From IMG/VR virus record IMGVR_UViG_3300047510_002727, positions 1 to 35,039 of that record: 35,039 nt of DNA. One strand, written 5' to 3'. How positions within the stretch are numbered: position 1 is the first letter of the stretch; every line of letters starts with the position of its first letter. Source of the DNA: a virus. The translations under genes were made by a program, and so were the position numbers. Below, piece after piece: positions 2,345 to 29,200 of the stretch. The notes under the pieces were generated by a model. That model did no database searches, had not been told where the DNA came from, and saw nothing but the letters and a program-made list of their open reading frames with translations.

Positions 2345-2575
2345 TTACCAGTCAGGATATTCCCACTCAACTTTTCTAGGCAATTTTTTCCTAGATTTTG
2401 ATACCCTCCTCACAGTACATTCTTTACACTCATATGAATATGCTGATGGAAAAGAACTTTTATTTTTACGAGTCAAATAAAAGTCTTCAATTAAATTTTT
2501 TACTCTACCACAAACTCTACACTTTCTTTCAAAAAATAGTAAATGCTCTACCTCCAATTCTTTATCTAAATCCAT
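2345..2575 (-). CDS. Small Cys4 zinc-ribbon-like protein
   Basis: A 76-residue protein starting MDLDKELEVEHLL. It has two CxxC pairs (CRVC and CKEC) about 30 residues apart, separated by a segment with FYLTRKN and PSAYSYE, then a basic tail (VRRVSKSRKKLPRK). The paired cysteines suggest a structural zinc site as in small zinc-ribbon or HNH-associated domains, but no catalytic HNH residues are visible. I chose the ATG at 2575 because its A is shared with the TAA of gp17 (TAATG), the coupling used repeatedly in this cluster. A GTG at 2590 would add five residues inside gp17. Its place between gp17 and gp18 may point to a packaging or nucleic-acid-binding role, but the function is unknown. Confidence 0.8.
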   Translation of the reverse strand: MDLDKELEVEHLLFFERKCRVCGRVKNLIEDFYLTRKNKSSFPSAYSYECKECTVRRVSKSRKKLPRKVEWEYPDW

Positions 2576-4248
2576 TACATATAATCCCACATAAAAGATC
2601 GATCTCCATATTCATCGGCGTACCACCTATCACCATCTTTATCGACAAATGCGGACATTTCTTCGAGACCATCAGAGACGAATCCAAATGGAGCCATATC
2701 TGCTTCTATTTGCTCTTCTTGCTCAACATATATTCTTTTACGAACATCATCATTCGTCATCTCCTTGAAATAAGGTTGTGCAACCAACCAGGAGAAAATA
2801 ACCAAGCACATTGCTAGGTCATCATTACAACCTTCTTCTGCTTCAAATGAACTATGCTTTTGAATAAATGTTGTTAACTCACTAATGATATCGTAATCAT
2901 TGATGAACAATTTATCGTCTTCTATAAGAGTCTTCAAATTGGAACAACCCAACTTCTTTACCGCAGAAGTCATTCTTATTCCTAGATAAGATTTTTTACC
3001 ACTAAATCCAGTTCCAACGATTTGCCCCGCTCTACCTCTTTGGGAGCACATCAAAATATTGTCATATTCCAAATCATAATGAAGAATATTTGCTACTTGA
3101 TCTCCAATATCATTGACCTCTACTAATAACCAAGAATTGTTATAGGCTCTCGCTACCTTTGCTATAATTTCTGGAAATAGCATTGGTTTGATTTCATTAT
3201 TTTTATATTTACCGACAATTTTATAAGGAAATTCGGTAATGTCTGTGATTATGAAAGCAGAGTAATCATTTCCTATTCCTCTAGCAACGTCAACGGTCAT
3301 CATATAATTATGATCCTTGACAGGATGTTCATATATGTCTAAACCTTTATTTCTTTTTATTGGATCATCATAAGCAAGATTTCTTAATTTGGATGCAGCA
3401 ATTAGCGTATTAACCGATCCTAAAAATTCACATTCAAACTCAACTCTAAACTGTTGCTCTGATGTGTTCGCAATTGTCTGCTCTTTCCATTTATCATCCC
3501 TTCCAGGAACCTCCTCCCAATGAACTTCTGTTGGGACATATTCATTTTTATTTCGTTCGGCATCATGCCACATTCTATAAAAATGATTCATTCCACGAGG
3601 AGTGGAAACAATAATTACTTTGGTGGATTGACCAGAAGATATAGTAGGATAAACAGAAGCGAAGAAGTCGTCAGCGATGTGATTAGGAATAAACGCAAAT
3701 TCGTCCAAGAATATAATATTATAAGAGCCACCGCGTACCGCAGAGGCGCTAGTAGAAGCAGCAATAATTTTTGAACCATTTTCTAACTCCAGAGAACCTC
3801 TATTCCATTGAAGAACGCCTTGTTGCATCCACTTTGGTAGATTTTCATAAGCAAGTTGTAAACGCTGTAACAAATCCCTAGCAGTGGATGCTTTGTTAGC
3901 AAGAATCGCAATATTTACATTATCATTGAAAACTGCATAGTGTAGAAGATAAGATACGCAAGTAGTTGACTTACCTGTCTGACGAGGCATCTTACAGATA
4001 TTAAATCTGTTTTGATGAAATCTCGTAATAAGTTTTTCCTGAAAAGGATACATTTCAAAAGGAACCAAACCATGATCCAGGGATACGATTTTGATGTAGT
4101 TTCGTGCAAAATATACAGGATCGTCCTTACATTTCAAAAATTCAATAATTTGTTCTTCATTATATTGAATCTGAGTGTTCGCTCTTTTTAGATTTGGATT
4201 AGAGAGATAGGCATCACCTTGCTTCAATTGAATGTCTTGGATATCCAT
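2575..4248 (-). CDS. 17: Terminase large subunit gp17
   Basis: ATP-driven DNA-packaging motor and headful nuclease, docking on the prohead portal. The 557 residues (T4 gp17: 610) show every expected motif: Walker A PRQTGKST at 88-95, Walker B IIFLDEF at 178-184 with catalytic E183, coupling motif VSTPRG at 214-219, then an RNase-H-fold nuclease with acidic residues at D320 (MTVDVARG), E377 (LLVEVND) and D477 (NDDLAM), matching T4 D401, E458 and D542. All catalytic residues are intact. The start at 4248 has AGTAGG in front and follows the upstream gene by two bases. The stop TAA overlaps the next ATG. Its partner gp16 is not adjacent as in T4 but lies three genes upstream. Confidence 0.97.
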   Translation of the reverse strand: MDIQDIQLKQGDAYLSNPNLKRANTQIQYNEEQIIEFLKCKDDPVYFARNYIKIVSLDHGLVPFEMYPFQEKLITRFHQNRFNICKMPRQTGKSTTCVSYLLHYAVFNDNVNIAILANKASTARDLLQRLQLAYENLPKWMQQGVLQWNRGSLELENGSKIIAASTSASAVRGGSYNIIFLDEFAFIPNHIADDFFASVYPTISSGQSTKVIIVSTPRGMNHFYRMWHDAERNKNEYVPTEVHWEEVPGRDDKWKEQTIANTSEQQFRVEFECEFLGSVNTLIAASKLRNLAYDDPIKRNKGLDIYEHPVKDHNYMMTVDVARGIGNDYSAFIITDITEFPYKIVGKYKNNEIKPMLFPEIIAKVARAYNNSWLLVEVNDIGDQVANILHYDLEYDNILMCSQRGRAGQIVGTGFSGKKSYLGIRMTSAVKKLGCSNLKTLIEDDKLFINDYDIISELTTFIQKHSSFEAEEGCNDDLAMCLVIFSWLVAQPYFKEMTNDDVRKRIYVEQEEQIEADMAPFGFVSDGLEEMSAFVDKDGDRWYADEYGDRSFMWDYM

Positions 4249-4250
4249 AA

Positions 4251-5576
4251 TTACCTACTAATCTCTTCCCAGTCCATAGAAGCAACTACTGTATTATTAT
4301 TAGCACTTGAAGCAACAACAAGAGTAAGTTCAAAAGGTGTTGATATTAGTCCATTTCTTTCTAACTGAAACTTAAATAGTGCTTCTTTGAGGATATCAAT
4401 TTGAGTTGTTCCTTGATTTGAAGCACTAAAAAATCCACTTCCAAGTATTCTTCCACCAGTGTAAGAAGTTCCAGTAATGTTATAATTCACAGCACTATCA
4501 TCACCAGCACTTACCCAATCTCCTCCCACAGTAGTGCCAGATGCTCTAATCTGCCAATTATAAGCACCTGTAGCAATTGGCATTACTGAAAGTGCCGTAA
4601 GAATTACAATTGCATCCAAAAAATTTGGTGATGTTTTGAGACGCAAACTAATGATAGGATAAAATGTTCCCGCAGTTGTAAGAGTTCTTGGTGTGGTGAT
4701 TGGTATTCCTACCGCCTGCTGTATTCCACGAAGTTCATAACCACCTTCTGAAATAACTGTAGAACAAACCTGTTTGAGATTACTTACACTCGTAGTTATT
4801 CCAGTATTGGCAATCTCATATCTTACTGGAAGTGATGCTGTTGTAATATAAGTTGATTCAATTATGTTTGCGTGATGAAATGAATGACAATGAATAAATT
4901 TTCCATCAATTACAAAACCCATTCTTACTGTTCCAAGTCCTAACCATTCAATATCCATCCACAAAATTTGTGCTTTGGAAATATCTAATGTAACACCAGA
5001 TGGATTGAGATGCCCTGCACCAAGCATTGTGTCAATATTCCAGTTATGTTGCGAAATTTTTGTTGTTGTTCCAGTAGATAAACTTCTTTCCGCAAAATAT
5101 AAAGTATCTCCATCAAGTTCTAGATACATTCCATTATCTGCACCAAAGTATCCTATTCTTTGACAAAGATTTGTTTTTGCTGGGTTCATTACAAATGTAT
5201 TCAATACCTGTAATGATTTTCCTGGTTGATAAGAGAATACTTTTGTGGTTTCTCTAATCACAGAACATCCTGCAGTAGTTCCTATTCCAATATTAACTAA
5301 ACCTTGTGTTGTTACAAATCCTACTGTAGAACCAGTACCAACAACTAAACTACTCCAAAGATTATTATCTCTATATCTGTGAGATGAATCAAATAATGTA
5401 AGTGGAATAGAAGTTCTTAAACGACCAAATGCATCGGTTGCTATAGGAGGAAAAATAACTGGAAATGGATTGTCAATTGTAACTACTTCACCATTTTTAT
5501 TGGCGACCATATTTACTTCAAAAAGAGTTCTTTCCTGATTTAGAAAGTCCTGTTCATTTTTATTAAATTGTGCCAT
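4251..5576 (-). CDS. Virion fibre/adhesin-like structural protein
   Basis: A 441-residue, beta-rich, Gly/Thr/Ser-rich protein. Near the N-terminus it has DAFGRLRTSIPLTLFDSSHR (about 48-67), a pattern I recognise from structural proteins of many marine and enteric phages (AFG(K/R)LRVSxPxTLFDS). It also has NIGIGTTAG, shared in style with other virion proteins of this genome, and ends VVASMDWEEISR. No signal peptide, membrane segment or enzyme motif is seen. It lies between the small Cap-targeted protein and gp17, with close spacing on both sides, so it is probably expressed with them. Likely roles are a head or neck decoration or a receptor-binding accessory. Assignment as structural is reasonable; the exact location on the virion is not shown. 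Confidence 0.75.
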   Translation of the reverse strand: MAQFNKNEQDFLNQERTLFEVNMVANKNGEVVTIDNPFPVIFPPIATDAFGRLRTSIPLTLFDSSHRYRDNNLWSSLVVGTGSTVGFVTTQGLVNIGIGTTAGCSVIRETTKVFSYQPGKSLQVLNTFVMNPAKTNLCQRIGYFGADNGMYLELDGDTLYFAERSLSTGTTTKISQHNWNIDTMLGAGHLNPSGVTLDISKAQILWMDIEWLGLGTVRMGFVIDGKFIHCHSFHHANIIESTYITTASLPVRYEIANTGITTSVSNLKQVCSTVISEGGYELRGIQQAVGIPITTPRTLTTAGTFYPIISLRLKTSPNFLDAIVILTALSVMPIATGAYNWQIRASGTTVGGDWVSAGDDSAVNYNITGTSYTGGRILGSGFFSASNQGTTQIDILKEALFKFQLERNGLISTPFELTLVVASSANNNTVVASMDWEEISR

Positions 5577-5579
5577 TAA

Positions 5580-5888
5580 TCATTCACCCCACGATAATCT
5601 TTCTGGTCTATATCTTTGTGAACTCTTTATAGTTATATCACTATTTGTTGATGGATAAATGTTATGAACAATTGCTCCAGGATATTCTCCTTGAAGTTGT
5701 TCGGTAAGTTCATTCTTATTCATCATTTTACCTTCAACTTCCATACGATATAATTTTCCTTGCCAAACTACATCAGCAAGAAAAGATTCTTTTGTTGTCT
5801 CTGGTTGTGATGCGTTCATATAGAGATTTCCATTGAAATCTCCAGCAATATTGATGCTTTCTGATAGAAACTGTTTAAAACTTTTCAT
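5580..5888 (-). CDS. Putative internal head protein with capsid-targeting sequence
   Basis: A small protein of 102 residues from the ATG at 5888. Its first residues, MKSFKQFLSE, closely resemble the T4 capsid-targeting sequence of internal proteins (MKTYQEFIAEA), and LSE fits the (L/I)xE site cut by prohead protease gp21. Cleavage after E10 would leave about 92 residues. The remaining domain contains VVWQGKLYRMEVEGK and an ELTEQLQGEYPGAIVHNIYP segment, suggesting a small beta/alpha fold. A GTG at 5900 would add four residues and overlap the preceding stop. I prefer the ATG because it places the targeting motif exactly at the N-terminus, five bases after that stop. Predicted role: co-packaged into the prohead with the scaffold and possibly ejected with DNA. 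What it does after that is unknown. Confidence 0.75.
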   Translation of the reverse strand: MKSFKQFLSESINIAGDFNGNLYMNASQPETTKESFLADVVWQGKLYRMEVEGKMMNKNELTEQLQGEYPGAIVHNIYPSTNSDITIKSSQRYRPERLSWGE

Positions 5889-5893
5889 TGGTT

Positions 5894-7306
5894 TCACCAC
5901 TTGACTTTATTCGCCCAATAGGCAGCGGACATTTTACCTTTTGCAATATTCTTTGCGTGTCTGGTTTGAAATCTCTTACGACGACTTGCGTATTCTTTTG
6001 ATTCTCCCTCTTTCTTTGGAGAACCTTTCACACCCCTTTGCCCAAAACGGATGAGTTTTTCTTTCCCACCCTCACAAGCTTTTACGACGTGAGACTTACC
6101 CGTAAGAGAATCTCCTACGGGGTCAGACTTTGGGGAGTTACATTTCATTTTAGACTTATCAATTGCTTCTCCAATTAGACCTATCTCTTTCTTCCAATCA
6201 GAGTAAATCTGCTCTGGTCCAATAACATCAATTACAGATATGAAATCATTACCTTGAGCATCTTGAAGTGTAACATCTTCATTTACAGTTTTCCACCCGC
6301 CACCTGCTTTTTTATATTCTTTTGCTGCCCAACCATTAGCATAAGCACTGGGATAAACATCAAATTTTGCTTTTGCTCTTGATTTCATCCGAGACCAGAG
6401 AGATGGATTAGTCGGAACATTCTTTTCCTCAATATACCCCTCACCAACATTATGCTCACCACTATCCAAATAATCTGCTGCAGTATCAATGTAGTCTGCT
6501 GCTTTTGTAATTTTAGATTGAACCCAAGCTTCAACACCACCTTCACCTTTCACCTTTTTACGAATTCTTGCAATGGCTCTATCAATCGTAGAAAGCTCCG
6601 AACGAATCATTGAATGTTCGTGATCAGATTCTTTTGATTCGTTTGCTGGGTGAGGACTATTTGCGTGATAATGAGGCATAGACATTGCTACAGAGGATAA
6701 CTTTGATGGTAGAGAAAACATATCCCAATATTTCACACCATATCTACACTCTTCTCTAGTCTCATCTTTTCTACACTTGGGGCAGTATCTAATCATACCT
6801 GCTTCTTCACCAATTTTATTAGAAACCATAATTGGTTTTCCTCCTTTGCCTTTACGATTTGCTACTGGATCAGATTTTCTTTTTCTTCTAACTGCAGCAG
6901 CCCTTTGAGATTTAGTCATTTTTGCTGCCTTCTCATTGGATAAGCACTTTGGTTTTGATTCTCCTGGCTCGCGGGCACAAGGTCCGATTGCTTCACCTTC
7001 AGTATTATACCTTTTCCAATTTCCTTCTGGATGTTTTTTGGAAAACCAGTTTCTCAAATCTTCTTTTACATCAGTAAATTTTTGATGTTCTTTTTTCGCT
7101 TTAGATTCCATCTTTTTCAAACGAGTATAATAATCTGGAATCTCATCAAGATGCTGAAGAGCAATATCTCTTGCTAATTCATGATCTTTTGTGTGCTCAT
7201 GTTCAATACGCTCCCCCATTTCAAGTTGCTTCTGTATAAAAGAAACATCCATTCGATGTTTCCTTGCAATTTGTTCAACTGTCTTATGGATTTTGAGTTT
7301 ATGCAC
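5894..7306 (-). CDS. Modular basic protein with DUF5661-, Cys- and DUF5872-like segments
   Basis: A 470-residue protein starting with GTG, ten bases after the gp16 stop. Segments in order: an N-terminal helical domain with EHEHTKDHELARDIALQHL (about 35-53), like DUF5661; a basic Cys-containing stretch with CAREPGESKPKC and AVRRKRKSDP (about 110-150); a zinc-finger-like segment YCPKCRKDETREECRYGVKYWDMFS (positions 174-198, Cys at 175, 178, 187); a helical module around AWVQSKITKAADYIDTAADY (260-279); a DUF5872-like segment RAKAKFDVYPSAYANGW (310-326); and a basic C-terminus with RHAKNIAKGKMSAAYWANK (449-467). Similar modules occur singly or in other combinations in marine phage proteins, from memory. 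The basic charge and setting next to the terminase genes suggest nucleic-acid or head association. No catalytic motif is recognised. The family names are from memory and need a profile search. Confidence 0.72.
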   Translation of the reverse strand: MHKLKIHKTVEQIARKHRMDVSFIQKQLEMGERIEHEHTKDHELARDIALQHLDEIPDYYTRLKKMESKAKKEHQKFTDVKEDLRNWFSKKHPEGNWKRYNTEGEAIGPCAREPGESKPKCLSNEKAAKMTKSQRAAAVRRKRKSDPVANRKGKGGKPIMVSNKIGEEAGMIRYCPKCRKDETREECRYGVKYWDMFSLPSKLSSVAMSMPHYHANSPHPANESKESDHEHSMIRSELSTIDRAIARIRKKVKGEGGVEAWVQSKITKAADYIDTAADYLDSGEHNVGEGYIEEKNVPTNPSLWSRMKSRAKAKFDVYPSAYANGWAAKEYKKAGGGWKTVNEDVTLQDAQGNDFISVIDVIGPEQIYSDWKKEIGLIGEAIDKSKMKCNSPKSDPVGDSLTGKSHVVKACEGGKEKLIRFGQRGVKGSPKKEGESKEYASRRKRFQTRHAKNIAKGKMSAAYWANKVKW

Positions 7307-7316
7307 AACGAAAAAG

Positions 7317-7769
7317 TTACTCTTTATTATTTAGAAAACCTTGTTTAAGTAATTTAGAAAGTTCGGAAGTAGATCCGACAAATAAAGCATTATTAGTCAC
7401 ATTATTTGTTGTTTTTGAAGACTCCTCCTCAACATCCTTCAATTTCTTCTGGAGATCCATCAATTTATCAGTCACATCACCAACACTTTTTATAAGTTGT
7501 CCAGCAACTTCATATGCTCTAGGACTTTCTCCTTCCCCAGCAAGTTCCAGTATTCCATTTATAGCTTCCTGACCCTTTTCAATCAAAGAATATAAATTTG
7601 CTCTAGTGTACTCATAGTCTTTCTTAACATCTTCCGTGCTAGTGTTTTTTGGAATTATTTCTTCAATTTTTCCTACTTCAACTTCAACTAGAGATTCTTC
7701 AGATTTAACTATATTTGTGTCGATTTCTAAATTGAGTGCTTTATCAATGGGATCGAAATTTTTAGGCAT
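7317..7769 (-). CDS. 16: Terminase small subunit gp16
   Basis: Recognition and regulatory subunit of the packaging motor, which in T4 forms a ring that stimulates gp17 ATPase. The protein has 150 residues (T4: 164). The central region DYEYTRANLYSLIEKGQEAI followed by a helical stretch with PRAYEVAGQLIKSVGDVTDKLMDLQKKL matches the coiled-coil oligomerisation core of gp16 in T4-like marine phages. The tail is Asn/Ser/Thr-rich and ends in a helix (SKLLKQGFLNN). The gene follows gp15 by 12 bases, as in the T4 order 15-16. It is not followed directly by gp17. Three other genes intervene. Confidence 0.93.
   Translation of the reverse strand: MPKNFDPIDKALNLEIDTNIVKSEESLVEVEVGKIEEIIPKNTSTEDVKKDYEYTRANLYSLIEKGQEAINGILELAGEGESPRAYEVAGQLIKSVGDVTDKLMDLQKKLKDVEEESSKTTNNVTNNALFVGSTSELSKLLKQGFLNNKE
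7328..7334 (-). promoter_or_regulatory. Possible late promoter heptamer CTAAATA before the inter-terminase cassette
   Basis: The minus strand reads CTAAATA inside the last codons of gp16, 21 bases before the GTG of the 470-residue gene. CTAAATA-like boxes have been described for late genes of cyanophages related to T4. The match is short and inside coding sequence, so it could be chance. It is listed because it is well placed to drive the three-gene cassette separately from gp13-gp16. Confidence 0.28.
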
Positions 7770-14338: not shown

Positions 14339-17300
14339 TTATCTAACGGTAAGAATTCTAATATCACGCATTCTGGGAACGTCTGCCTGATTTGTTGAGG
14401 AGAATACTATTTTAACAGCATAGTTTGTAAATGGTGCCAAATTATCTACAGTAAATTGATACTCTCTAAATTCATCTCTCAAACTGATAGGAACTCTTAC
14501 ATCAGGTCTTCCACTATTGAGTGAAGGATTAATAATATTATTTGGTACACCATCACCATCTGTATCGACTGAAAGATTATCATATCCAGGGAATAAGTTG
14601 TATATTACATCAGATCCAGAAGTATTTGCTGGGTCTAAAGTATATAATGCTCTAATATCTGATCCAGATGGTAGATATACAGTTGCCAGTATTTTTATAG
14701 AGGTTGCTGGTTGTGAAATGGTAATTATATCACTGTAATAATTTGCTATATGGGGATCTCCAGAAATTTGATTAACTCTCGAATCATTCGTATAATCTAC
14801 TATTGGATTATTAATTCTAGAACTCATAAATTCCGTTGAACCTTGATCTAAAATAATTTGTGGAGAAATATTTTTATCTGTTGTGGATAAAGTAATCCCT
14901 GTTGTGAAGGATTTATTTCTAGGTAGTGCAGTTAAGTATGTATCCTCATTTACTTTAGAGCAAACCATTCTAACTGAAGATAATTTATTCATTTGATTGA
15001 GTAAAACTGACTCAAATCCTAAATCTTGGAATGATGCTTCCGAACCACTAATACTAGTTCCACTTACAGATCTGATAGATGCTGAAACATTAGTTACTGG
15101 AGCTGGAGTTATAATGGTGTAAAGTGGTTGTATAGAATCAAATTGAATGTTTTTAGATCCTCTTACGTTTATTCCACCATAAGTACCACCAGATGTGAAT
15201 GACAATTGTGGGCTATTTGGGATAGTTCCATCAGTATTTCTACTTGTCCCATTTGAAGTTCTATCAATTTCAATGTAATATGAATCTGCTTGGATATCAT
15301 AATCACTAATGTCGTGAGATTTATTAATTCTTCTCAATGAAACTCCATCAAGTTCATACTTATAAACCAATGTCCCTACAGAATAATTTACTGGGATTGT
15401 AGAATCTTGACCTCTTGTGATAGAACTAATAACTCCATCACCAATTCCCTCATATTTAACAATTTCATTTTCAATTAGTAAGTATCCTGGATTATTAGCA
15501 TTTACTGGCAATCCTTCAAATAGTGCAAAATTAGTAGTATCGGCAATAGCAACATTTATAGAAGTATCTGTGATAGAGAATGGAGACTCTATTCTTACTG
15601 GTGCAGAGTTTGGTTCCACACCCGATATTGATACCTGGTTATTTTCGGCATACATTCCATGATAAAAATGATTAACTCTTAGGTGTTTTCCAGTAGATCT
15701 TCCTCCAACCTCTGTTGAACTTCTGACAAGAGTGGATCCTAATGAGACTTTTGTTCCAGTTGAAGTTACATAAGTCAATGCTGCACCAACAGTAAAGTCT
15801 CCTTGGACATTTGTAAGATATAAGGTATCTAATCCAGAAATTTGAGATATTGTAAAGAGAGCACCAGATCCAGTGTTAGAAGAAACTGAAGAAGTTACGA
15901 TTCCAACTACATCACCCACAGCATATCCATTACCTGGTTGAACAGTAGAAACTCCACTTATAGCGCCATTTGTAGCAGTAATATTAAGTTTTAATCCACT
16001 ACCTCTACCAGTAATACTATAAGTATCTACTGAAGTATCAGTAACATAATTAGTCCCAACTCCAGTCACTGTTAATGTTGTAACAGAACTACCAGTTCCA
16101 GTAATAACACCACCACCATATCCAGTTGTCGTTACCTTTCTTCCAGGAGACAATACTGCAGCGACTAGTGGATCTGTTGCTGTTGTAATTCCAACTATTA
16201 ATTCTTTAGGATAAGTAGTAATTGGGTTTGATGCAAGTGGCTCAATAAAGTTGTTTGCTACGTCAAGTGTTGGATTATAGAAGAAGGCTGTCCCTTCAGT
16301 TGAAGTGAATTCTGCCTTATAAAGTTTAAACTTCAGATCTTGATACTGATCAGCAGTCCATATAGATCCATTTTGAGATTTGAACAAGCTGCCAATTGCA
16401 AACTGCTGTGTATATCTTGCTTGATCTGCATTTGGTAGAGATGCTGCATTCACAGAATCTTCTCCCATCTGCGCTATCCAAGCTTCATACTGATCACTTT
16501 CGGATGCAATTAAAACAATTGCATATTCTTCTCCTGGCGGTAAAAATATTGGAGAATCGAAAGTTACACGTGTCGCAGCGGTGGCATCTGCTGAAACATT
16601 TATTTGATCTGGACTCAATATTGCAGGTGTTCCTAATATTTCTAGAGTTGGAGTTCCTAATTGAACAGTACGAACTTCAACAGTCAATGGAGCTGACCCA
16701 CTATCTTTAGATTTGAAATAAAGATCTACACCAGTTAAAAATGCCCCGTTTATATCTTCCTGAAAATCATTTTGTCCAGGAGCATCGATTTCTCTCCCTA
16801 CTGTAAAAGTTTGTGCCAATGGATCTCTACGTCTTACCCTTCTTACAGTTGTTGTAGTAACAATTTCAGATACTTGTGTTATGGTTCTTGTTATAGTTCT
16901 TAAGAAAAAGTTTACAGTTCCTTCAGATCTGAAATTAGTTTCAGCACTAGAAATCAATTTACTACCCAATGCGTTTCTAGCATCATTCGAATCAGAACTT
17001 AGCCTATACGTCTTATTACCTGTGGTTATTCTTACTGATGGTGCGGGAGTATCAAAAGGTTCTCTAATCCAAAAACATCCAGATACAAATCCAAAGTTGT
17101 CAGTAATCAATCTAACATCCTTAACATATGCAACCGCTCCACTTGTTTGGCCAACCAATCTCATTCCAATTTCAATTCTACCAGCAAAAATTCCTTGAGT
17201 TTCCTCTGCAAGAGAAAATGTATCAACGTTTAAAACACTGGATGATATACTATATTCTGATGATAGGGATTGTGTTCTATCATATGGATTTATAACATAT

Positions 17301-20300
17301 GTTGTTGTTGGATTATTGAATGGTCCAGTTTTATGATTTTGATTTGCAACTCTGAACGAAATTGATGCTTGTGATGAAGATGTGGAGCTGCTCATTCTAC
17401 CTATTACGGTCTCTCCAGGTATGAATGCTTTAGAAGATCCATTTGTTGTTAGATTTTCATCTGCGGCAATCTCAATAAGTTTTGGAATAAAATCTACACC
17501 ACTGTTTCCATCCAAAAATTGATAATATCTTGTGTTAGATTTTAAATTTGATGCTCTAAATTCAACGTTTCTAGACCTCATAAACTCTTCGTTTATGGTA
17601 TCTACTAAATCATTTGATTCTGTTTCGGTAGTGAAACTTCCTAAATCTCTAGTTTCAACCGTAGTAGTAGATTGTACTCTTCTTCTGAACCATGGCCAAC
17701 CCCACCATCCCCATCTCGATCTACCAAACCACCACCACCACAAATTAACTCTTCTTGTTTGAATCACAGTTTGTTCTCTAGTTTGTACCAAAGAAGTAGT
17801 TTGAGTAATAATATTATTTGGGAGTTGAACTGTTCTAATCCAAGTGTCAGAACTTGGATTAAGTATAACAGTACCATTATATTCCACAACGTGGAATGGG
17901 TTGACATTTTCAACTCTAGTTGCTATTGGTTGTTCTATCCAACCAACTTCACGATAGTTTAGTGTTACCGTTCTCCCAGTTTTTCTGACATTAGGATCTA
18001 ATAAATCATAATTTTCAGATAAATCTATCTCATTATCTGTTCTGAAAAGAGATGGTGCTAATTGACATCTAAAGCTATTTCTGGCAGTAATTGGTTTTAA
18101 TTCTGAATCGACAACCTCACATTCAGCAACTCCAAAATTGACTAATTGCCCGTTATCAAAGTCGTCTACAAAAAATCCAGTTTTAAATCTGTTCAATCCT
18201 TGAGCATCTTGAATTTGAAGAGATTGTGTACTCAGTTCTAATAGACTTAATGATGTAGTTTCTTCAAGTCTTTGAATTCTATTTTCAAGTCCACCAATAT
18301 CTCTCATAGTATATCTTCGATTATCAGTTAGATTAATCAAAGCATTTGCGGTATTGTATAGATACGGTGGAAGTGATATAGTTGCAATGTTCATCACTTC
18401 TTTTGGTTTTGGTGGAGCTTCTGGATTGATTGATGAAACTCCTTTTTCTACAGAAATAAAACCAAATTTATCTACATAAACTCTATCAACTCTCCCCAAA
18501 TAGAATGAATATCCAACTACAGAACTTTCATTTGGTGCAATAACATATTTTGGATCATCTACAAAAGATCTTTGGGAAAAATCAAATGGTGAAGAAGTGC
18601 TACTAGTGAATGGCGATACTCTAGGTCTAAAATCTAAAATATCTGAAGCTCTTATTTGTCTAGCTCCAACATTTGGAATATCCTCAAGATATCTTTCCTC
18701 ATCATAACTTAAAACAGTAAATACATCTCCGTTATCGTTTGATGGTATTTGATATCTGTCAAATACAACTAAAATACGTTTTGATGGTGTTATAGAGCTT
18801 CTATTTCTATTGATACGGGAATAATCTAAGTATTGATCTCTTTGACCTTTATCTAAATTAAAATTATTTGTGAGATCTATATATTGCCCTAAAATAATTT
18901 CAGAAATGTTGGTATTAATATTTGATTCGGTAAAAATTACAGATTCGTTAGGTTGGAATCTTTGTGGATTTAAATAAACAATACTTAGAGTATTTGAAGA
19001 TAATTTTTCAACCACTCTAGCAACTGTTCCACTTGCCGATCCAATTATATTCTCACCAACAATAGCATTCACATCAACATTAGCAGTGGATAGGAAAATT
19101 AATTTATCTAAAACTGGATTAGATATACCATAAGATTCATAAACTGCTAAAACTCTAGATACATCTGGATAGTTTAGGCAGATAGATTCGTCCTGAACTC
19201 TTGTTCCATAATAAGGGCTATAGGTTAATCCATCATTCAAACTTTCATTAGATGTTACTCCTGAACCTACATTTTTAGATTTTGAAATATAAACAATTTC
19301 ACTCCTCTTATATTCTTTTACTTTACTTTGAACATTAATTTTTCTCGCGGTAACGTTTACGATCACATTTGTTTCTGATGGTCTAAGACCATTAATTGTG
19401 ATTGTTGTTCCAGTAGTAGTGAATTGATCGGAGGTTATTCTTGCTTGAGATCCATCAGAATAATGAATAGAATAACGATCTTCATCAAATGATTCAAAAA
19501 ATGCACTAGAAATTCCAGTTACAGATATATCAAATGTTAATACTCCAGAACCATTTGTAGTCTGTGAAGTAATTTGTTCTGATACAATTAATTGAGAATC
19601 ATTAAGATCAATTGAAGCAACGTTTGTTGAGGGTAATATGCTGTATAAGGAAGATTTTTCTGGACTACTTAATTCAGCATTTCCCAAAAATATTGGTACA
19701 TTTATATCTGATGTTGGAAGATCTCCAACACAAACTCCAGGTACTGAAATTCTTGTTGCAACTGTTATTGAAAGTCCACTGGGGTCTACGGAAGAAACTC
19801 TATTATATGTTTCAGTAGATAAACCTGGATTTTGATATCTGATAATAGAATCAACTTTAATATTTGTAAAAATACGACCAGGACTACTAATTATTCCTCC
19901 ACTAGTAATACCTACGGTATCTCCTAAAGTAAATTCTGGAAGAAGAGTTCTATTTAGAACTGAATCTGCAGCAAAACCTACTGGATATCCACTACTGATT
20001 GCTTGATATAGGGATTTTATTTCGTCGGTGCCATATGAAAGAACTGCTGTTAAAGTTCTTGTATTATTTTCATTATCATCTATTATAATTTCTTCATTTA
20101 CGATAAATTGTCCTGTTGTTTGTCTGACAGTAACTGATGTGCCTGTTCCACCAGAAACAACGAATCCAGTTGCACCACTACTCTTCCCTCTTATAAAGGA
20201 TGTGGTATTTGTAGTTACTGATCTGGAAACAGTAAGGGTAGTATAAAGTAAAATATCATAAAGATATACATCCCATTCAGTAGATGGTCCATTGTAAGCA

Positions 20301-21625
20301 GCATCTACAAGATTATATGTGTATATTCTTGCAACTCCGATTAATTCTTGAGTTGGTGCAAAAGACCCACTTAGTCTTCCACGATAAAGAGAAACTTCTG
20401 CTTTTTGTTTTGGTGCACCGTAAAAATTATTAATTCTAATTCTATTTCCCATCTCAAATGAGATGTTAGATGTGTTTGATTGTGTATCTCTTGGTTTTTC
20501 TACATCTAAAATAGTAGTTCCTTGACTTTCTACATCATATCCTCTAACATAAGCTTTTCCTGGAGAAATCTTTATAGATAAGAGATTTTCTGATGGTGTA
20601 TTTCCTTGTTCTGTTTTTTCATTTTCAAAGAAAAATCCATTATTGCCTAAACGATTATTTAATGAATTTCCTAATGTTACTTCATAAGGATCTACTGCAT
20701 AATCTCCAGATTCATCATAAGTTCTTTTTGCCAAATAATCTCTGATGATCGAATAGTCAGTTTTAGTATTGATTTTTTTAATTTGACCTTCTTGAATTCT
20801 CATGAGTTCAACAAAGTCAGTATCATTTAAATCGTCAATCGATTTTTTAGATAACTTTACTGAAATTTTAAATCTATCTGCGCCAGGAGCTGCAAAATTG
20901 TTAAATCCTTTAGCATTATCATATAAAGAAGAATCGTCTTTAGCTGTTACTATTTCTTCACTAACTGTAAGACCGATCCTGTAAGTTGGTAAATTCCCAT
21001 AAGGATCTAAAAGTATTGTCTCTTTTTCTACCCTAACAAAATTACCACGTATAAAGTAAATTCCATTATCTATAGAAACTGCAGATCCAATAGAAGTTGG
21101 ATTATCATTTATTATAGTTGCGAATGGTGTTCCAGAATTTATCGTCGTATTTCCATACGTAATATTTTCATTTGCAAATAATTCTTCGCCTGCAGTAAAT
21201 GGATTAAAAATGTTATCATTATCAGAATCGATATATTTTACGTAAAGAGTAACATCTTGTATTTCATTACCATCTGGATATGCAATAAAAACGAGATTTG
21301 CAGTTACACCAGATGTCTGTCCTACGATATTTTTTCCTAAAAATTGATCAAGATAAAGTTGAACTGGAATACCAAAGTTAGACGAATTTATTTTTACAGA
21401 ATAAAACTGCGAATCGAAAGTGAGTGCACCTGGTATGACCATCGCACCTTCTTTGAATATATGACTGCCAAATGACTCAATTTGATTTTGGAGAACTGAC
21501 TGTAATGTAGTTAATTCTCTTGCCTGAATTGGTCTACCTGGATTGAATAATACTTTGTAAAAATTCTTGGTAGAATCAAAATCATCAAAATATGGATTTA
21601 CATTTAAATTTGTTTTTTGAGCCAT
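14339..21625 (-). CDS. Giant DUF4815-type baseplate/tail-fibre protein
   Basis: A 2,428-residue protein. The N-terminus NPYFDDFDSTKNFYKVLFNPG (10-30) with RPIQARELTTLQSVLQNQIE (31-50) is the start of the DUF4815 family of phage virion proteins. A later conserved part has FMRSRNVEF and SNTRYYQFLDG (about 1348-1376), and RRDPLAQTFTV lies near 1600. At 1296-1316 there is a Trp-rich basic patch with nine Trp in 17 residues. Beyond about 1850 come recurring modules: a GNGY-type unit, and a GYLLIENEIVKYEGI...TRG unit near 2045-2070. The C-terminus looks like a beta-sandwich (SIKILATVYLPSGSDIRALY). It follows gp8, where T4 has gp9 and gp10, so baseplate periphery or fibre attachment is likely. Equivalence to one T4 gene is not shown. 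Confidence 0.85.
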   Translation of the reverse strand: MAQKTNLNVNPYFDDFDSTKNFYKVLFNPGRPIQARELTTLQSVLQNQIESFGSHIFKEGAMVIPGALTFDSQFYSVKINSSNFGIPVQLYLDQFLGKNIVGQTSGVTANLVFIAYPDGNEIQDVTLYVKYIDSDNDNIFNPFTAGEELFANENITYGNTTINSGTPFATIINDNPTSIGSAVSIDNGIYFIRGNFVRVEKETILLDPYGNLPTYRIGLTVSEEIVTAKDDSSLYDNAKGFNNFAAPGADRFKISVKLSKKSIDDLNDTDFVELMRIQEGQIKKINTKTDYSIIRDYLAKRTYDESGDYAVDPYEVTLGNSLNNRLGNNGFFFENEKTEQGNTPSENLLSIKISPGKAYVRGYDVESQGTTILDVEKPRDTQSNTSNISFEMGNRIRINNFYGAPKQKAEVSLYRGRLSGSFAPTQELIGVARIYTYNLVDAAYNGPSTEWDVYLYDILLYTTLTVSRSVTTNTTSFIRGKSSGATGFVVSGGTGTSVTVRQTTGQFIVNEEIIIDDNENNTRTLTAVLSYGTDEIKSLYQAISSGYPVGFAADSVLNRTLLPEFTLGDTVGITSGGIISSPGRIFTNIKVDSIIRYQNPGLSTETYNRVSSVDPSGLSITVATRISVPGVCVGDLPTSDINVPIFLGNAELSSPEKSSLYSILPSTNVASIDLNDSQLIVSEQITSQTTNGSGVLTFDISVTGISSAFFESFDEDRYSIHYSDGSQARITSDQFTTTGTTITINGLRPSETNVIVNVTARKINVQSKVKEYKRSEIVYISKSKNVGSGVTSNESLNDGLTYSPYYGTRVQDESICLNYPDVSRVLAVYESYGISNPVLDKLIFLSTANVDVNAIVGENIIGSASGTVARVVEKLSSNTLSIVYLNPQRFQPNESVIFTESNINTNISEIILGQYIDLTNNFNLDKGQRDQYLDYSRINRNRSSITPSKRILVVFDRYQIPSNDNGDVFTVLSYDEERYLEDIPNVGARQIRASDILDFRPRVSPFTSSTSSPFDFSQRSFVDDPKYVIAPNESSVVGYSFYLGRVDRVYVDKFGFISVEKGVSSINPEAPPKPKEVMNIATISLPPYLYNTANALINLTDNRRYTMRDIGGLENRIQRLEETTSLSLLELSTQSLQIQDAQGLNRFKTGFFVDDFDNGQLVNFGVAECEVVDSELKPITARNSFRCQLAPSLFRTDNEIDLSENYDLLDPNVRKTGRTVTLNYREVGWIEQPIATRVENVNPFHVVEYNGTVILNPSSDTWIRTVQLPNNIITQTTSLVQTREQTVIQTRRVNLWWWWFGRSRWGWWGWPWFRRRVQSTTTVETRDLGSFTTETESNDLVDTINEEFMRSRNVEFRASNLKSNTRYYQFLDGNSGVDFIPKLIEIAADENLTTNGSSKAFIPGETVIGRMSSSTSSSQASISFRVANQNHKTGPFNNPTTTYVINPYDRTQSLSSEYSISSSVLNVDTFSLAEETQGIFAGRIEIGMRLVGQTSGAVAYVKDVRLITDNFGFVSGCFWIREPFDTPAPSVRITTGNKTYRLSSDSNDARNALGSKLISSAETNFRSEGTVNFFLRTITRTITQVSEIVTTTTVRRVRRRDPLAQTFTVGREIDAPGQNDFQEDINGAFLTGVDLYFKSKDSGSAPLTVEVRTVQLGTPTLEILGTPAILSPDQINVSADATAATRVTFDSPIFLPPGEEYAIVLIASESDQYEAWIAQMGEDSVNAASLPNADQARYTQQFAIGSLFKSQNGSIWTADQYQDLKFKLYKAEFTSTEGTAFFYNPTLDVANNFIEPLASNPITTYPKELIVGITTATDPLVAAVLSPGRKVTTTGYGGGVITGTGSSVTTLTVTGVGTNYVTDTSVDTYSITGRGSGLKLNITATNGAISGVSTVQPGNGYAVGDVVGIVTSSVSSNTGSGALFTISQISGLDTLYLTNVQGDFTVGAALTYVTSTGTKVSLGSTLVRSSTEVGGRSTGKHLRVNHFYHGMYAENNQVSISGVEPNSAPVRIESPFSITDTSINVAIADTTNFALFEGLPVNANNPGYLLIENEIVKYEGIGDGVISSITRGQDSTIPVNYSVGTLVYKYELDGVSLRRINKSHDISDYDIQADSYYIEIDRTSNGTSRNTDGTIPNSPQLSFTSGGTYGGINVRGSKNIQFDSIQPLYTIITPAPVTNVSASIRSVSGTSISGSEASFQDLGFESVLLNQMNKLSSVRMVCSKVNEDTYLTALPRNKSFTTGITLSTTDKNISPQIILDQGSTEFMSSRINNPIVDYTNDSRVNQISGDPHIANYYSDIITISQPATSIKILATVYLPSGSDIRALYTLDPANTSGSDVIYNLFPGYDNLSVDTDGDGVPNNIINPSLNSGRPDVRVPISLRDEFREYQFTVDNLAPFTNYAVKIVFSSTNQADVPRMRDIRILTVR
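17678..17740 (-). other. Trp-rich basic patch in the DUF4815 protein
   Basis: Encodes residues 1296-1316 of the 2,428-residue protein. Four consecutive Trp are followed by FGRSRWGWWGWPW, then Phe and three Arg. Nine of 17 residues (1296-1312) are Trp. It is preceded by a Gln/Thr/Arg stretch (QTREQTVIQTRR) and followed by a Thr/Glu-rich one. The frame is open on both sides for hundreds of codons, so it is not a frameshift artefact. Role unknown. Confidence 0.85.
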
Positions 21626-23238: not shown

Positions 23239-26200
23239 TTATGGTAAAACCTTTGAAACCGCACCAGTATCTCTCAAACCATATCCTCTTCTCTGTAATG
23301 ATGGGTATGTTGATAGCCCAGAAGAAGATGTTTTTCCAGTAACTGCAATTGCAACAGAATTAGATCTAGTTACATTTGTTATTTTACCCCAAGAGAATTT
23401 ACCAATATTTGTTCCAGTACTACTCAATCCAATAGTAGAAGTTGTTGATCTAATATTACAAGTAATAATTCCTGCTGCATTATTTACAAAGTGTACATAG
23501 TAGACGTTATCAACAGAATGAGTACCAATTGCAACAACATCATTATTATTAAAATCAATTGATGTTATGCCAGAACCAACTGTTGTATCGTAAATGTAGA
23601 TAGCATCTCCAGTAGAAATTCCAGATCCAGAACTCAATGTGAAAGTTATTGCTAATGGAGTTCCAACTCCCTTAGTTGTAGAAATTCCAGTAATAGTACC
23701 TTTATTTCCCAGGATATTTGTTTTTTCAATATTTGTAATATTATCATATATTGGTGATGGTGGTGGAATAAGAACACTCGGAGGTCTCTCTGGATCATAC
23801 CCAAATCCACCATTAGTCACATTAATTGTACCTAATGAACCTCCAACTATAGAAACAACAGCCTGAGCATTTGCTGTGGTTCCTATACCAGTAGATATAT
23901 TATTAGTTCCAAAACCTGCTAATGGTGGAGATCCGATTATAACTGTTAGAGATGATCCAACATATCCAGATCCACTCTCAACAATCGACAGAACAACTGT
24001 GCTACCAATTCCAACACTTGCTGTTATTTTTCCTGGGATTAGAGATTTAGAATCATCTACAATGATTGCTCCAATACTTTCAGATAATCCAATATCCTCA
24101 TAATCAAATAAATCAACTGTATCTAGATATATTTCAGAAGAATTTGAATTTACATTTTTTAGTATTCTTGCAGATGGATAGAGAGTTGTCTCCAAAGAGT
24201 CTCTAGTTTTATAAACTATAGTATTATTAATCTTAATATCTGCTTTTTGTTTGTACCAAGTTAATGGTTTGTAATTCAAGTCATCTACACCCACACCAGA
24301 ATATGAATTAGTTTCTAATATGTCTGATGATTTCAATAAAGTAACAGTTCTTCTATTTTGTGTTACCGTTTCATCTAGGTTTTGATTTGATTTAAATAAT
24401 TGTACTTGATCTCCTTCTTTTATTGTTGCGTCTGCCTCAACTAAAGCACTATCTTGTCCAGAAGTTCCCAAGTAGAAGAAAATTGAAATATTATCTTCTG
24501 GTTTAGGTGGACTCGAAAAACTAAAAGTAGAACCACCTTCAAATATGTAATCAATGTCTGGTTTTTGTAGAACTCCATTGACAAAAATCAATAGTAGAGG
24601 GCTAAAATCAATTAATTGAGAGTCTGGATCTTTGGTGTCCTTTTCAAAAGAAAGTAGTTCTCCATCAAAATTTAGGGGGAATCTAACTCTTACGTTGTCT
24701 TGTAGATTTTTTATACTATCAATGTAATTAAATTCTCCAAATTGCCATGATGCAAAATCATCATTGAATACCTCAGTTACAGTCAGTTCAAATGGAAGTA
24801 TTGGATTAGCATATCCTCTTGCAGTCACCAATCCAATTGGTCTAATAACATCACCTTTTCTAAACCCATACCCCTGTCTAGAGACCTTGAATGATGTTAC
24901 TTCAAACAAGGTAGATCCAATTCCCGTTGCAGAACTAGCACCGACCTCTAAGGTAACTAATAAACCAGTTCCAGTTTGTGTTGTTGATCCTATACCAAGT
25001 CTAGAAACCCCTACAACCTCTAGATTTTCATAAGATGGAGGTCCCACAAAGATTTGGGGATTTGTGTACCCAGTTCCCCCAGAATTGACGATAAATGATA
25101 GTGATCCACCAGCACCAACCAAAGCGGATACAGAGGCTTGTGACCCAGTGTGACCCGCTTCATACACAGATACTCCAATTGAAACTAATCCATTATATCC
25201 AGATCCATTATAGTCTGTTGTTCCAACACCAACAGCAGTGATAGATCCTCCAGAAACAACTGCAGTCACAGATGCTCCGACTAATGGTGCAAATCCTAAA
25301 CCATTAGTAGAACCTAAAGATACAATCAAACCACCCCTTGGAAGTTGATTTTGATTTACATCAGCATTAGAAATAATGATAGAACCACCAACTGAAGTAA
25401 TTCCAGTAAATCTTACACTAGTTATTCCTGATACAGTATTTTCAACGATTTCATAATTATTATTCGTATTATTTGGTGCAGATGGGGATTGGAATATACT
25501 ATTCAACAATATTATTCCACTTCCTCCTGTTGTGCCTAGACCAGTAGTATTCAAACCAGAAACTGTTAGTGGATATAATTGATCTAATCCAGTAAATTGT
25601 GGGGATATATTATCAAAAATTTGGTTAGTAGTATAATCTTGTCTTAAAAATACTCTACCACTAAACTCCGATTGAGGATCTTCAATATTTGAAGAACCTA
25701 TAGTTTCTCCAAAATTTCCTTTTGGTGCTTGAGTAAAGTATATGTCACTACCAACAATATTATATGATCCTTTATAAACTATTGCAGTTGTTCCGTCAGT
25801 GTGGCTAGTTGCGGAAGATCCCACAAACGCTCTACGAACTTCAACTAAATTAAAATCTCCATCATCCGTAATAGGACCCTGTGATGTAGTACCAAGTCCA
25901 ACATTTATAACTCTTACAAATTCTTCATCTATTTTCAATAAATCGTCAGAAAGAACTGAAGATATTCCAGATAAAGAAATGTAGGTAGTTGCCGATCCTA
26001 CTGATCCACCATTATCAAATAAACTATGTGCTATTCCAGTATATGCAATTGGAGATTGTACTAAATCGTCAATAGAAATAACTGCCTTTGTATTCTTTTT
26101 GGTCATTTCTAGTTTATGGGCATTTCCAGATCCTCTATTAGTGAATGTCACCGCAATGCCAGACAAAGCATATTCTTTTCTTGTTGATAATTTAATCGTA

Positions 26201-29200
26201 TCCTTTGTAATTTTTATAGGATAAACTGTTGATGGTAGAATATTAGTTACAACGCCAACAGAATTTAAGGTTGCACCAATTCCAAGTGCAATTGGTAATG
26301 ATCCACCAAAGGTTGAGAATGGTTTATAAATTAGTTCTTCACCAGTATTGAAAAAGTGGTCTGGAACTCTAATTACTCCAGTTTCTAAATCAACTACAGA
26401 AAAATCGGATGGATTGAAAGTTTTTTCAAAAATAGGAACGTTATTATAATTCAATGGGAAAACTAAATTATTAAAGTTTTCATCATTGATGCCAAAATAT
26501 GTTACAACATTCAATTTCTCGGAAACCGCACCATATACTAAATCTGGTGGAATATTAACAGGGTCTGATTCGAGATACATTCCCAGAGTAAATGCTTTGA
26601 CTGTTACTATTCCAGTAATAGAAGGGTCTGGATAAAATACTAAGTCAATATTACCTCCAGAATATTTTGCACCAAAAGATCCTATTCCTGATGTTGCACC
26701 GACAGAAACTGTGGGAGATTGCATTGTATAAGATTGGAGTTCTGAATAATTATTCAGAGTAATGACTTGATGTAAAGAATTTTTACCAGGGGCAATAATT
26801 TCAACCATTCCCTTGAATGTTGAAAATCTGCTCGAATCGAATGAAGCATAAGTAGTCGATGAAGACCCTACAGTTGTAGCATAATCAGAACTGTATACTA
26901 GGGTTTTTTCTGTTCCAGGAACTTCTCCAGCAGAAAGGAATCTATACGTCCCAATACCAATGGATGTTTGGGCAAATCCTACATTTTTTGATCTTATAGT
27001 ATACTTATTGCCATTTGGTTTTATATAATCTAACTTAAGTAATCCACCAGCAAGATAAGATCTAAACGTACCAAATCCTGTGATTGAAAGACTATTTGAT
27101 GTATTATTGAAGAAAAATTCACTTTGATAGGTATTGATCCCATCATGGACAATATAAAGCTCCACATAATTGATATCTTTCGTTACATCATCTAGAACTT
27201 GAACTATAGAATGTACTGCAGTGTAAGAAGAGGAATCTAAATCATATATTGATGTACTTGAAACTCCAGTATTAAGAACTTTATTCGATGATATGAGATC
27301 TACAAATCCTACGGATGATACTCCATAACCAACCGAAAATCCATTGAAATTTTGAGATAATATTTTAATCGAAAAACTATTGTTAAATGGATCTGTTGGT
27401 AAAAATCTAAGACTATATACTCCAAATTCATCCTGGAAAGAATTTATTTCAGATAATGTATCAAAATCGCCATTTGAAAGATAATTTCTCTTCAATGAAA
27501 AAATATTTTTATCATCATTCAAAACTACAACTTCATGAATTTCAACATTGTTAGTTGCTAGTTCATTAACTTGTATAAAATAAGAATTATAAGTACTCGA
27601 AGATTCTATATCATCTAAAATAGTAAAGCTTTCTACATCAAAGTCTAGATTTATGGATTCTTTGTTGGAGAATAATCCAGAAATATCGTCTATTTTCAAT
27701 ACACGATTAGTTTTAGATGCTAGATAATTAGAAAGTTTTTTATTTTTTAGTTTAATTAGTTTAGATGTATTGTTGAATATATTTAAATCTATAGATTGGT
27801 CATAGTTATTAATAGCGTCTACTCTATTTTCGGATATATTATCGATAATCAAATCAGTTTCATCAACCGTTGATACTAAAGATGATGTTAGATTTGAGCT
27901 AAAAATTTGAGTATCTGCAAAATTTTTCAATCCAGAAGAGTGAACAAGACTATTGACTGGTGTTATTAATTCATCAAAAGTTATTTTACTCTTGATAGTA
28001 TAGGATAAATTTTGGTGATAATCATTATCCGATAAGACTTGGATATCATTATTTAAAAATCCAGTTTGATCTGTCCACCCATATGTTTGCTCGGTAGAAT
28101 AATCAATTTCAAATTCAGCATCATCTTCTCTGATCTCATAAACCCTCCCTTCATATCTGGATACAGATCCTTTTACAACTTCTCCAATAGATAATTTATA
28201 TTGTCCAGAAACTTTAATGGATGTATTTGTTGTATTTTCTACAAATAAATCTCTCTGTAAAAATTCTTGATCTCCAAATTTTGTTATTAATCTTTCACCT
28301 TTTATAAAGGGTGAATTTGATAAAACTAAATTAAAATCTGGATAATTAAGACTACTTATTATAGATGAGAATGAATCTTGTATTGTTTTAGCAACGCCAA
28401 CATTTAGACTAAACTCTGATAAATCAAAGGTTACTTTTGCTGGAATTGAGGGTGTATAATTTGTTACAGTAAAGAATTGATATCCATAATCCGAAGAATT
28501 AAATCCAGATCCATCCAAACTATTTTTTTCTATACCTTCGACATATATTTTACTTCCAATTGGAAATGGTGAAGCACTAAATCCAGAAAGAGGCGTTGTT
28601 ATTGTACAAGTTACAATTCCAGATGAAGAACTCTCAACACTAGTAATACTTACACCATTTGTATTGTTTACAGATACTAGTCTCACATCTCCAGATGGCA
28701 GACCTTTAGGTGAATCGACAATTTCTATAGACGAAACTGTCGATCCAGATAATTTAGCATTGAATAACCCAGAGTTGATAACTTCATTATTAAAATCATC
28801 AAAGATAATCAGATTTGGTGGTGTGATATAATTTTTACCACCATTAATTATTTCTATATCAGATATTGTATTTGAAGACTCCAGTAAAATTTCTAATGAT
28901 ACATCTGCTAGAGGTCTAATAGTTTTATCAATAGCATATTCAATACCCTGGTTGGATATATTGACTTGTTGAATTTTTCCAATTGAATTTGAATTTGCTA
29001 TAAATGATGCTCCAGATCCATTTTCTGTTATAGATTCTGAGAAAAATGGAATGGTTGAATAATTTTTAGAAGAACTTATGTCCAACTTTGAAATTCCGCC
29101 AAGTGCAGATTTTGAAGTTGTCTGGTACTCTAACACATCACAATCTTGCTGATCATAATCAATAGATTCTGGAATATCGGTAAGAATTATATCGAAGGAT

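Follow-up and report, generated by a model that had tools for sequence, protein, structure and literature searches.

Genomic context and gene family

The window analyzed here, an entire virus record of 35 kb, carries on its minus strand a tight block of genes in which the terminase subunits gp16 (positions 7317 to 7769; phrog_445, E = 2e-53) and gp17 (2575 to 4248; identified by profile matches) are separated by three genes. The first of these (5894 to 7306) encodes a multidomain protein with DUF5661 and DUF5872-like regions, whose relative in S-SCSM1, gp029 (phrog_727), is a virion protein detected by mass spectrometry (MS), and the last one (4251 to 5576) encodes a virion structural protein assigned to phrog_1645. 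Between them lies a minus-strand open reading frame (5580 to 5900) that, when read from the ATG at 5888 to the stop codon at 5580 (5580 to 5888 including the stop codon), specifies a small protein of 102 aa with the N-terminus MKSFKQFLSESINIAGDFNG; the product reads MKSFKQFLSESINIAGDFNGNLYMN... The structural block of the window also includes two very long genes, at 23239 to 34950 and 14339 to 21625 (minus strand), of 3903 and 2428 aa.

The PHROG profile phrog_1742 (function unknown) matches residues 1 to 101 of the 102-residue protein (E = 3.4e-40), making it a full-length member that shows no difference from the rest of the family. A Pfam search with this protein gave no match, and a sequence search of the PDB returned chance-level matches only. 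Homologues are found in 137 phage records and several hundred IMG/VR contigs and, where the phage is named, all of them come from T4-type cyanomyoviruses. Directly after the phrog_1742 gene comes a phrog_1645 or phrog_8198 virion gene (160 of 160 loci), and on its other side a member of the upstream family is recognizable in 125 of 164; S-SM1 has neither the phrog_1742 gene nor its phrog_1645 partner.

The N-terminal leader and the start codon

The first ten residues of the protein, MKSFKQFLSE (5859 to 5888, minus strand), constitute a putative T4-type capsid-targeting sequence (CTS) with a predicted gp21-type cut after E10, an assignment based on the homologue alignment and on mutational data from T4 (PMC9026906). 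In the T4 record, both IPII and IPIII begin with MKTYQEFIAEA, the same pattern as MKSFKQFLSE followed by S. Mutagenesis of the T4 CTS has shown that targeting depends mainly on residues 4 and 7 and processing on residues 8 and 10, with gp21 cleaving after L/I-x-E (PMC9026906). The 176 distinct homologues aligned with the window protein share an invariant M1, K2, F7, and E10 and have F or Y at position 4, I, L, or M at position 8, and S, A, or T at position 11, so that both the targeting determinants (F/Y4 with F7, 176/176) and the processing determinants (I/L/M8 with E10) are present throughout. The positions conserved in the phrog_1742 leader are, by this alignment, the functional ones of the T4 CTS. 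The statement that all homologues have the leader is slightly biased because the leader itself served as one of the search patterns; homologues obtained through other motifs, those in loci L272 and L323 and in S-PRM1, were inspected singly. The leader is kept in every homologue with an intact N-terminus and is lost in the S-PRM1 fusion described below. It also appears to be modular, as the L272 homologue (L272/L410 contig) keeps it ahead of an insertion of ~36 residues.

Two counts argue for the significance of this pattern. In the window and ten phage genomes taken together, E10 is found in 23 of 27 proteins that start with MKx[FYLIM]xx[FY][LIMVF], versus 18 of 212 internal occurrences of the same motif, which served as controls (Fisher p = 4e-17), and the residue after E10 is A, S, or T in 21 of these 23. 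The DNA pattern of the leader gave 18 matches in 13 records and 36 more in 18 IMG/VR contigs, against none for the reversed-pattern control, in a census that covered the whole records reached through the loci. As for the start codon, 116 of the 175 homologues with upstream sequence have no alternative start between the upstream stop codon and the ATG, which supports ATG 5888 over GTG 5900. The preliminary description of this locus, made from the sequence of the window, had proposed a T4-type leader, a protease site after E10, and a start at ATG 5888 rather than GTG 5900. All three proposals agree with these data: the leader follows the IPII/IPIII pattern, is conserved among homologues, and is shared with an MS-detected virion enzyme (see below), and the invariance of E10, in keeping with the T4 data on residues 8 and 10, makes cleavage after this residue likely. 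The strongest support comes from this enzyme and from the match to the T4 mutational data on residues 4, 7, 8, and 10.

The body of the protein

The structure model built from 44 sequences predicts a short helix for the leader, then a disordered region, and, with confidence, a beta-beta-alpha-beta core. The segment that would follow the cut, SINIAGDFNGNLYMN (residues 11 to 25; 5814 to 5858, minus strand), is mostly predicted to be disordered but conserved, and the folded core occupies residues from about 35 to 80 (5649 to 5786, minus strand). In the homologue alignment, the mean entropy is 0.50 bits for the leader, 0.64 for residues 11 to 25, 1.99 for the linker, and 1.12 for the core. Thus, of the expected contrast between ten conserved residues at the start and a variable remainder, the first half stands, the leader being the most conserved block of the protein, but not the second, since the segment after the predicted cut and the core are conserved too.

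The core is homologous to a module found in the upstream DUF6321/DUF5872 virion proteins (phrog_727/3477) of many relatives (hhalign probability 97.4%, E = 9e-12, along with matches of the core HMM), including the MS-detected gp029 of S-SCSM1; there, however, the module is internal to a large protein and comes without the phrog_1742 leader. In S-PRM1 (L088:3956-6070), a single gene joins the phrog_1742 core to the N-terminal side of the DUF-type protein that is elsewhere encoded upstream, and this version has lost its leader; the gene after it (L088:6073) begins with MKTYNQFVLE. The kinship of the core, this fusion, the invariable synteny with the downstream virion gene, and the joint absence of both genes from S-SM1 point to the phrog_1742 product working with virion proteins.

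The comparison with the T4 internal proteins is likewise two-sided. IPII and IPIII resemble the window protein in being small products with a ten-residue N-terminal leader that has an aromatic residue at position 4, F7, L, I, or M at position 8, E10, and A or S at position 11. The bodies, however, show no kinship, and those of the T4 proteins are hypervariable between related phages, a trait that the entropies of residues 11 to 25 and of the core do not display. Unlike the IPII and IPIII genes, the window gene resides in the terminase/neck block of cyanophages, and the packaging and cleavage of its product are predicted ones.

The same leader on a virion enzyme

The leader is common to otherwise unrelated proteins, which include the T4 internal proteins, a cytidylyltransferase, a DPBB_1 protein, and others. 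The cytidylyltransferase/NMNAT-like protein T4-GC190 (phrog_395) bears it in Syn9, Syn33, S-RIM2, P-SSM2, S-B05, S-SRM01, and S-SCSM1, and in 40 distinct IMG/VR sequences of this enzyme the pattern MK[SN][FLY]xxFLxE[ASG] gives way at once to an indel-rich linker. The S-SCSM1, Syn9, and S-SM1 genes of this enzyme correspond to loci L194:4820-6049, L195:3736-4884, and L475. Such a sharp break in conservation after E10 and A/S/G11, at the predicted cut, is what would be expected of a removable tag. The enzyme has the same leader pattern and the same protease-type site as the window protein but differs from it in being a protein of ~360 to 440 aa (longer in S-RIM2), in a conservation that stops at the cut site and is followed by a variable linker, and in having been detected by MS in virions, namely, those of S-SCSM1 (PMC9602691), S-SM1 (PMC3037559), and S-SZBM1 (PMC9146016). 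The virion-detected proteins start with MKSFLQFLKEA, MKKFSAFLNEA, and MRFRQFIIEA, respectively. Among the leader-bearing cyanophage cargo, virion presence has been reported for the cytidylyltransferase only.

A protease of gp21-type specificity is plausible in cyanophages because gp23 has the site LAE58/A (in S-SCSM1) and S-SCSM1 gp22 contains eight sites of the type [LI]xE[AGS], which places it, like T4 gp22, among the proteins densest in such sites in the proteomes compared.

Virion proteomes

The phrog_1742 product is not among the 45 virion proteins detected in S-SCSM1, as read from the virion labels of its record, nor among the 30 detected in S-SZBM1 according to the published table (PMC9146016). 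Products of the neighboring genes were detected in both, gp029 and gp031 in S-SCSM1 and S-SZBM1_190 in S-SZBM1, where _190 and the absent _191 were tentatively matched to GenBank genes by length and order. S-SM1 is uninformative in this respect because it does not have the gene. Presence of the protein in the mature virion, in which T4-type internal proteins are abundant, is not supported by these two proteomes. Scarce proteins can be missed by MS, and small ones often are; small size, low copy number, or loss during maturation may explain the nondetection.

Interpretation

We favor, at a probability of about 0.6, the view that the phrog_1742 product enters the head by means of a T4-type CTS and resides there as a minor internal protein. 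The shared leader, the conservation of its targeting and processing positions, the enrichment of E10, and the MS-detected enzyme with the same leader make CTS-type prohead loading likely, as judged from sequence comparisons. In the proposed scheme, the leader helix would bind the gp22-type scaffold core through aromatic residues 4 and 7 and bring the protein into the prohead, a gp21 homologue would cut after L-S-E10 and free the 92-residue protein, and the mature protein would stay in the capsid at low copy number beside the virion proteins encoded by its neighbors, from where the DNA may take it along on ejection. It is uncertain that the protein persists in the finished virion, and the role of an injected effector after packaging is unproven. 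The evidence against this view consists of the nondetection of the product in two virion proteomes that do contain neighboring products and the leader-bearing enzyme, the fusion of the core and loss of the leader in S-PRM1, and the conservation of the segment after the cut, which comes close to that of the leader, whereas variable cargo would be usual behind a disposable tag.

Some of these observations could also be accommodated if the protein were an assembly partner that is not retained: the leader would take it into the prohead core, where it would assist the placement or folding of the DUF6321/5872 and phrog_1645 virion proteins encoded next to it before being cut and expelled, as are the T4 gp67 and gp68 fragments. 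This possibility, which we regard as real but rather less than probable, is in line with the detection of the neighboring products in the two proteomes that lack the phrog_1742 product, the fixed position of the gene directly upstream of the phrog_1645/8198 gene and the joint loss of this pair in S-SM1, and the paralogy of the core with the module of the upstream virion protein, to which it is fused in S-PRM1. However, the window protein has one obvious strong protease-type site, E10, whereas gp22 has many; its compact core would survive the cutting, and MS often misses small proteins. The position of the gene in a neck/terminase/tail block, rather than beside gp20 to gp23, would fit a leader that is a short assembly helix for the neck or tail and resembles the T4 CTS by convergence, but we consider this very unlikely, as the T4 internal protein leaders and an MS-confirmed cargo enzyme encoded at a distance share exactly the positions critical in T4, the protease site included. 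A chance resemblance or a wrong start codon, for which one could cite the limitation of the match to ten residues, can practically be dismissed: the conservation of the leader in all homologues with intact N-termini already refutes it, as do the enrichment statistics.

The remaining alternative concerns the core. An injected modulator with a Gp2/epsilon-like core, delivered with the DNA, would bind host RNA polymerase before phage gene expression begins, much as T4 Alt acts on this enzyme by another chemistry. The best fold matches in the PDB are, in repeated comparisons, T7 Gp2 and YkzG (epsilon), with 4lk0_M for the window protein (E = 0.17, probability 0.99, TM score 0.67 on the target) and 4njc_B for a diverged family member (E = 0.25, probability 0.93), and the order of secondary structure elements is the same, beta-beta-alpha-beta. 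Nevertheless, all fold E values exceed 0.1 (0.17 to 0.28), kinship with the Gp2 family by sequence profile was rejected (hhalign probability 0.3%), the strand with the invariant R56 and R58 of the Gp2 family has no evident counterpart in the core, the same module occurs in a large virion protein, and small beta-beta-alpha-beta folds recur widely. The Gp2-like fold, which the model suggests weakly, is thus a lead, not a finding, and we consider a polymerase modulator improbable. The 92 residues after the leader had been described earlier as a candidate early effector, a suggestion that is not supported in view of the absence of the product from two virion proteomes, the conservation of residues 11 to 25, the paralogy of the core with a virion-protein module, and the constant location of the gene immediately before one for a virion structural protein.

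Implications for cyanophage capsid cargo

Returning to the CTS-type loading of a head-internal protein, several cyanophage genes make use of the predicted tag, among them that of an enzyme already seen in virions, and these viruses probably carry a set of tagged proteins. The authors of the proteome studies left open whether the NMNAT-like enzymes found in the particles were packaged or carried over (PMC9602691, PMC10665884); a T4-type tag on these enzymes offers a packaging mechanism and a simple test. We found no report of such a leader in cyanophages, including on the virion cytidylyltransferase, in the open-access literature searched. With this tag, a class of "hypothetical" cyanophage genes becomes a definite set whose products are likely to be capsid cargo. 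A far broader scheme, which we consider doubtful, would have T4-type cyanophages operate a modular prohead import in which one exchangeable ten-residue tag serves unrelated cargo, namely, NMNAT/cytidylyltransferase, a DPBB_1 "lytic transglycolase"-type protein, and a protein of Gp2 fold that targets the RNA polymerase of the host; once released by the cut, this cargo would be injected to begin host takeover ahead of gene expression.

Additional leader-like sequences

Several other genes encode proteins with the leader or a similar sequence. The product of L436:1501-1914 combines the leader with a DPBB_1 "lytic transglycolase" domain (E = 2.6e-9), and a leader-bearing protein encoded on the minus strand at L432:1003-1530 resembles it only weakly. 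T4 gene 61.1 (L200:467-631) encodes the uncharacterized 54-aa gp61.1 with the CTS-like start MKTFKEFIKEDMVAGDSGGN. The DUF5872-type protein encoded directly upstream of the phrog_1742 gene can bear a leader of its own, as in L410 and in S-SZBM1 gp084; at L410:1501-2381, on the contig that also includes L272, each of two neighboring genes has the leader, and the second has ~36 extra residues before the conserved body. Possible non-N-terminal versions of the tag are found in the virion protein gp279 of S-SCSM1 (L202:41626-41835), with a C-terminal TFKEFLEYIE, and in S-SZBM1 gp082 (L439:15253-17376, minus strand), with an internal TYREFIAEG; apart from these two cases, internal CTS-like motifs in the proteomes look like background. 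Finally, the cytidylyltransferase gene of S-SKS1 (73234 to ~72048, minus strand) appears to be split into a leader-bearing 111-aa open reading frame and an unannotated remainder, which may represent either a pseudogene or a sequencing error.
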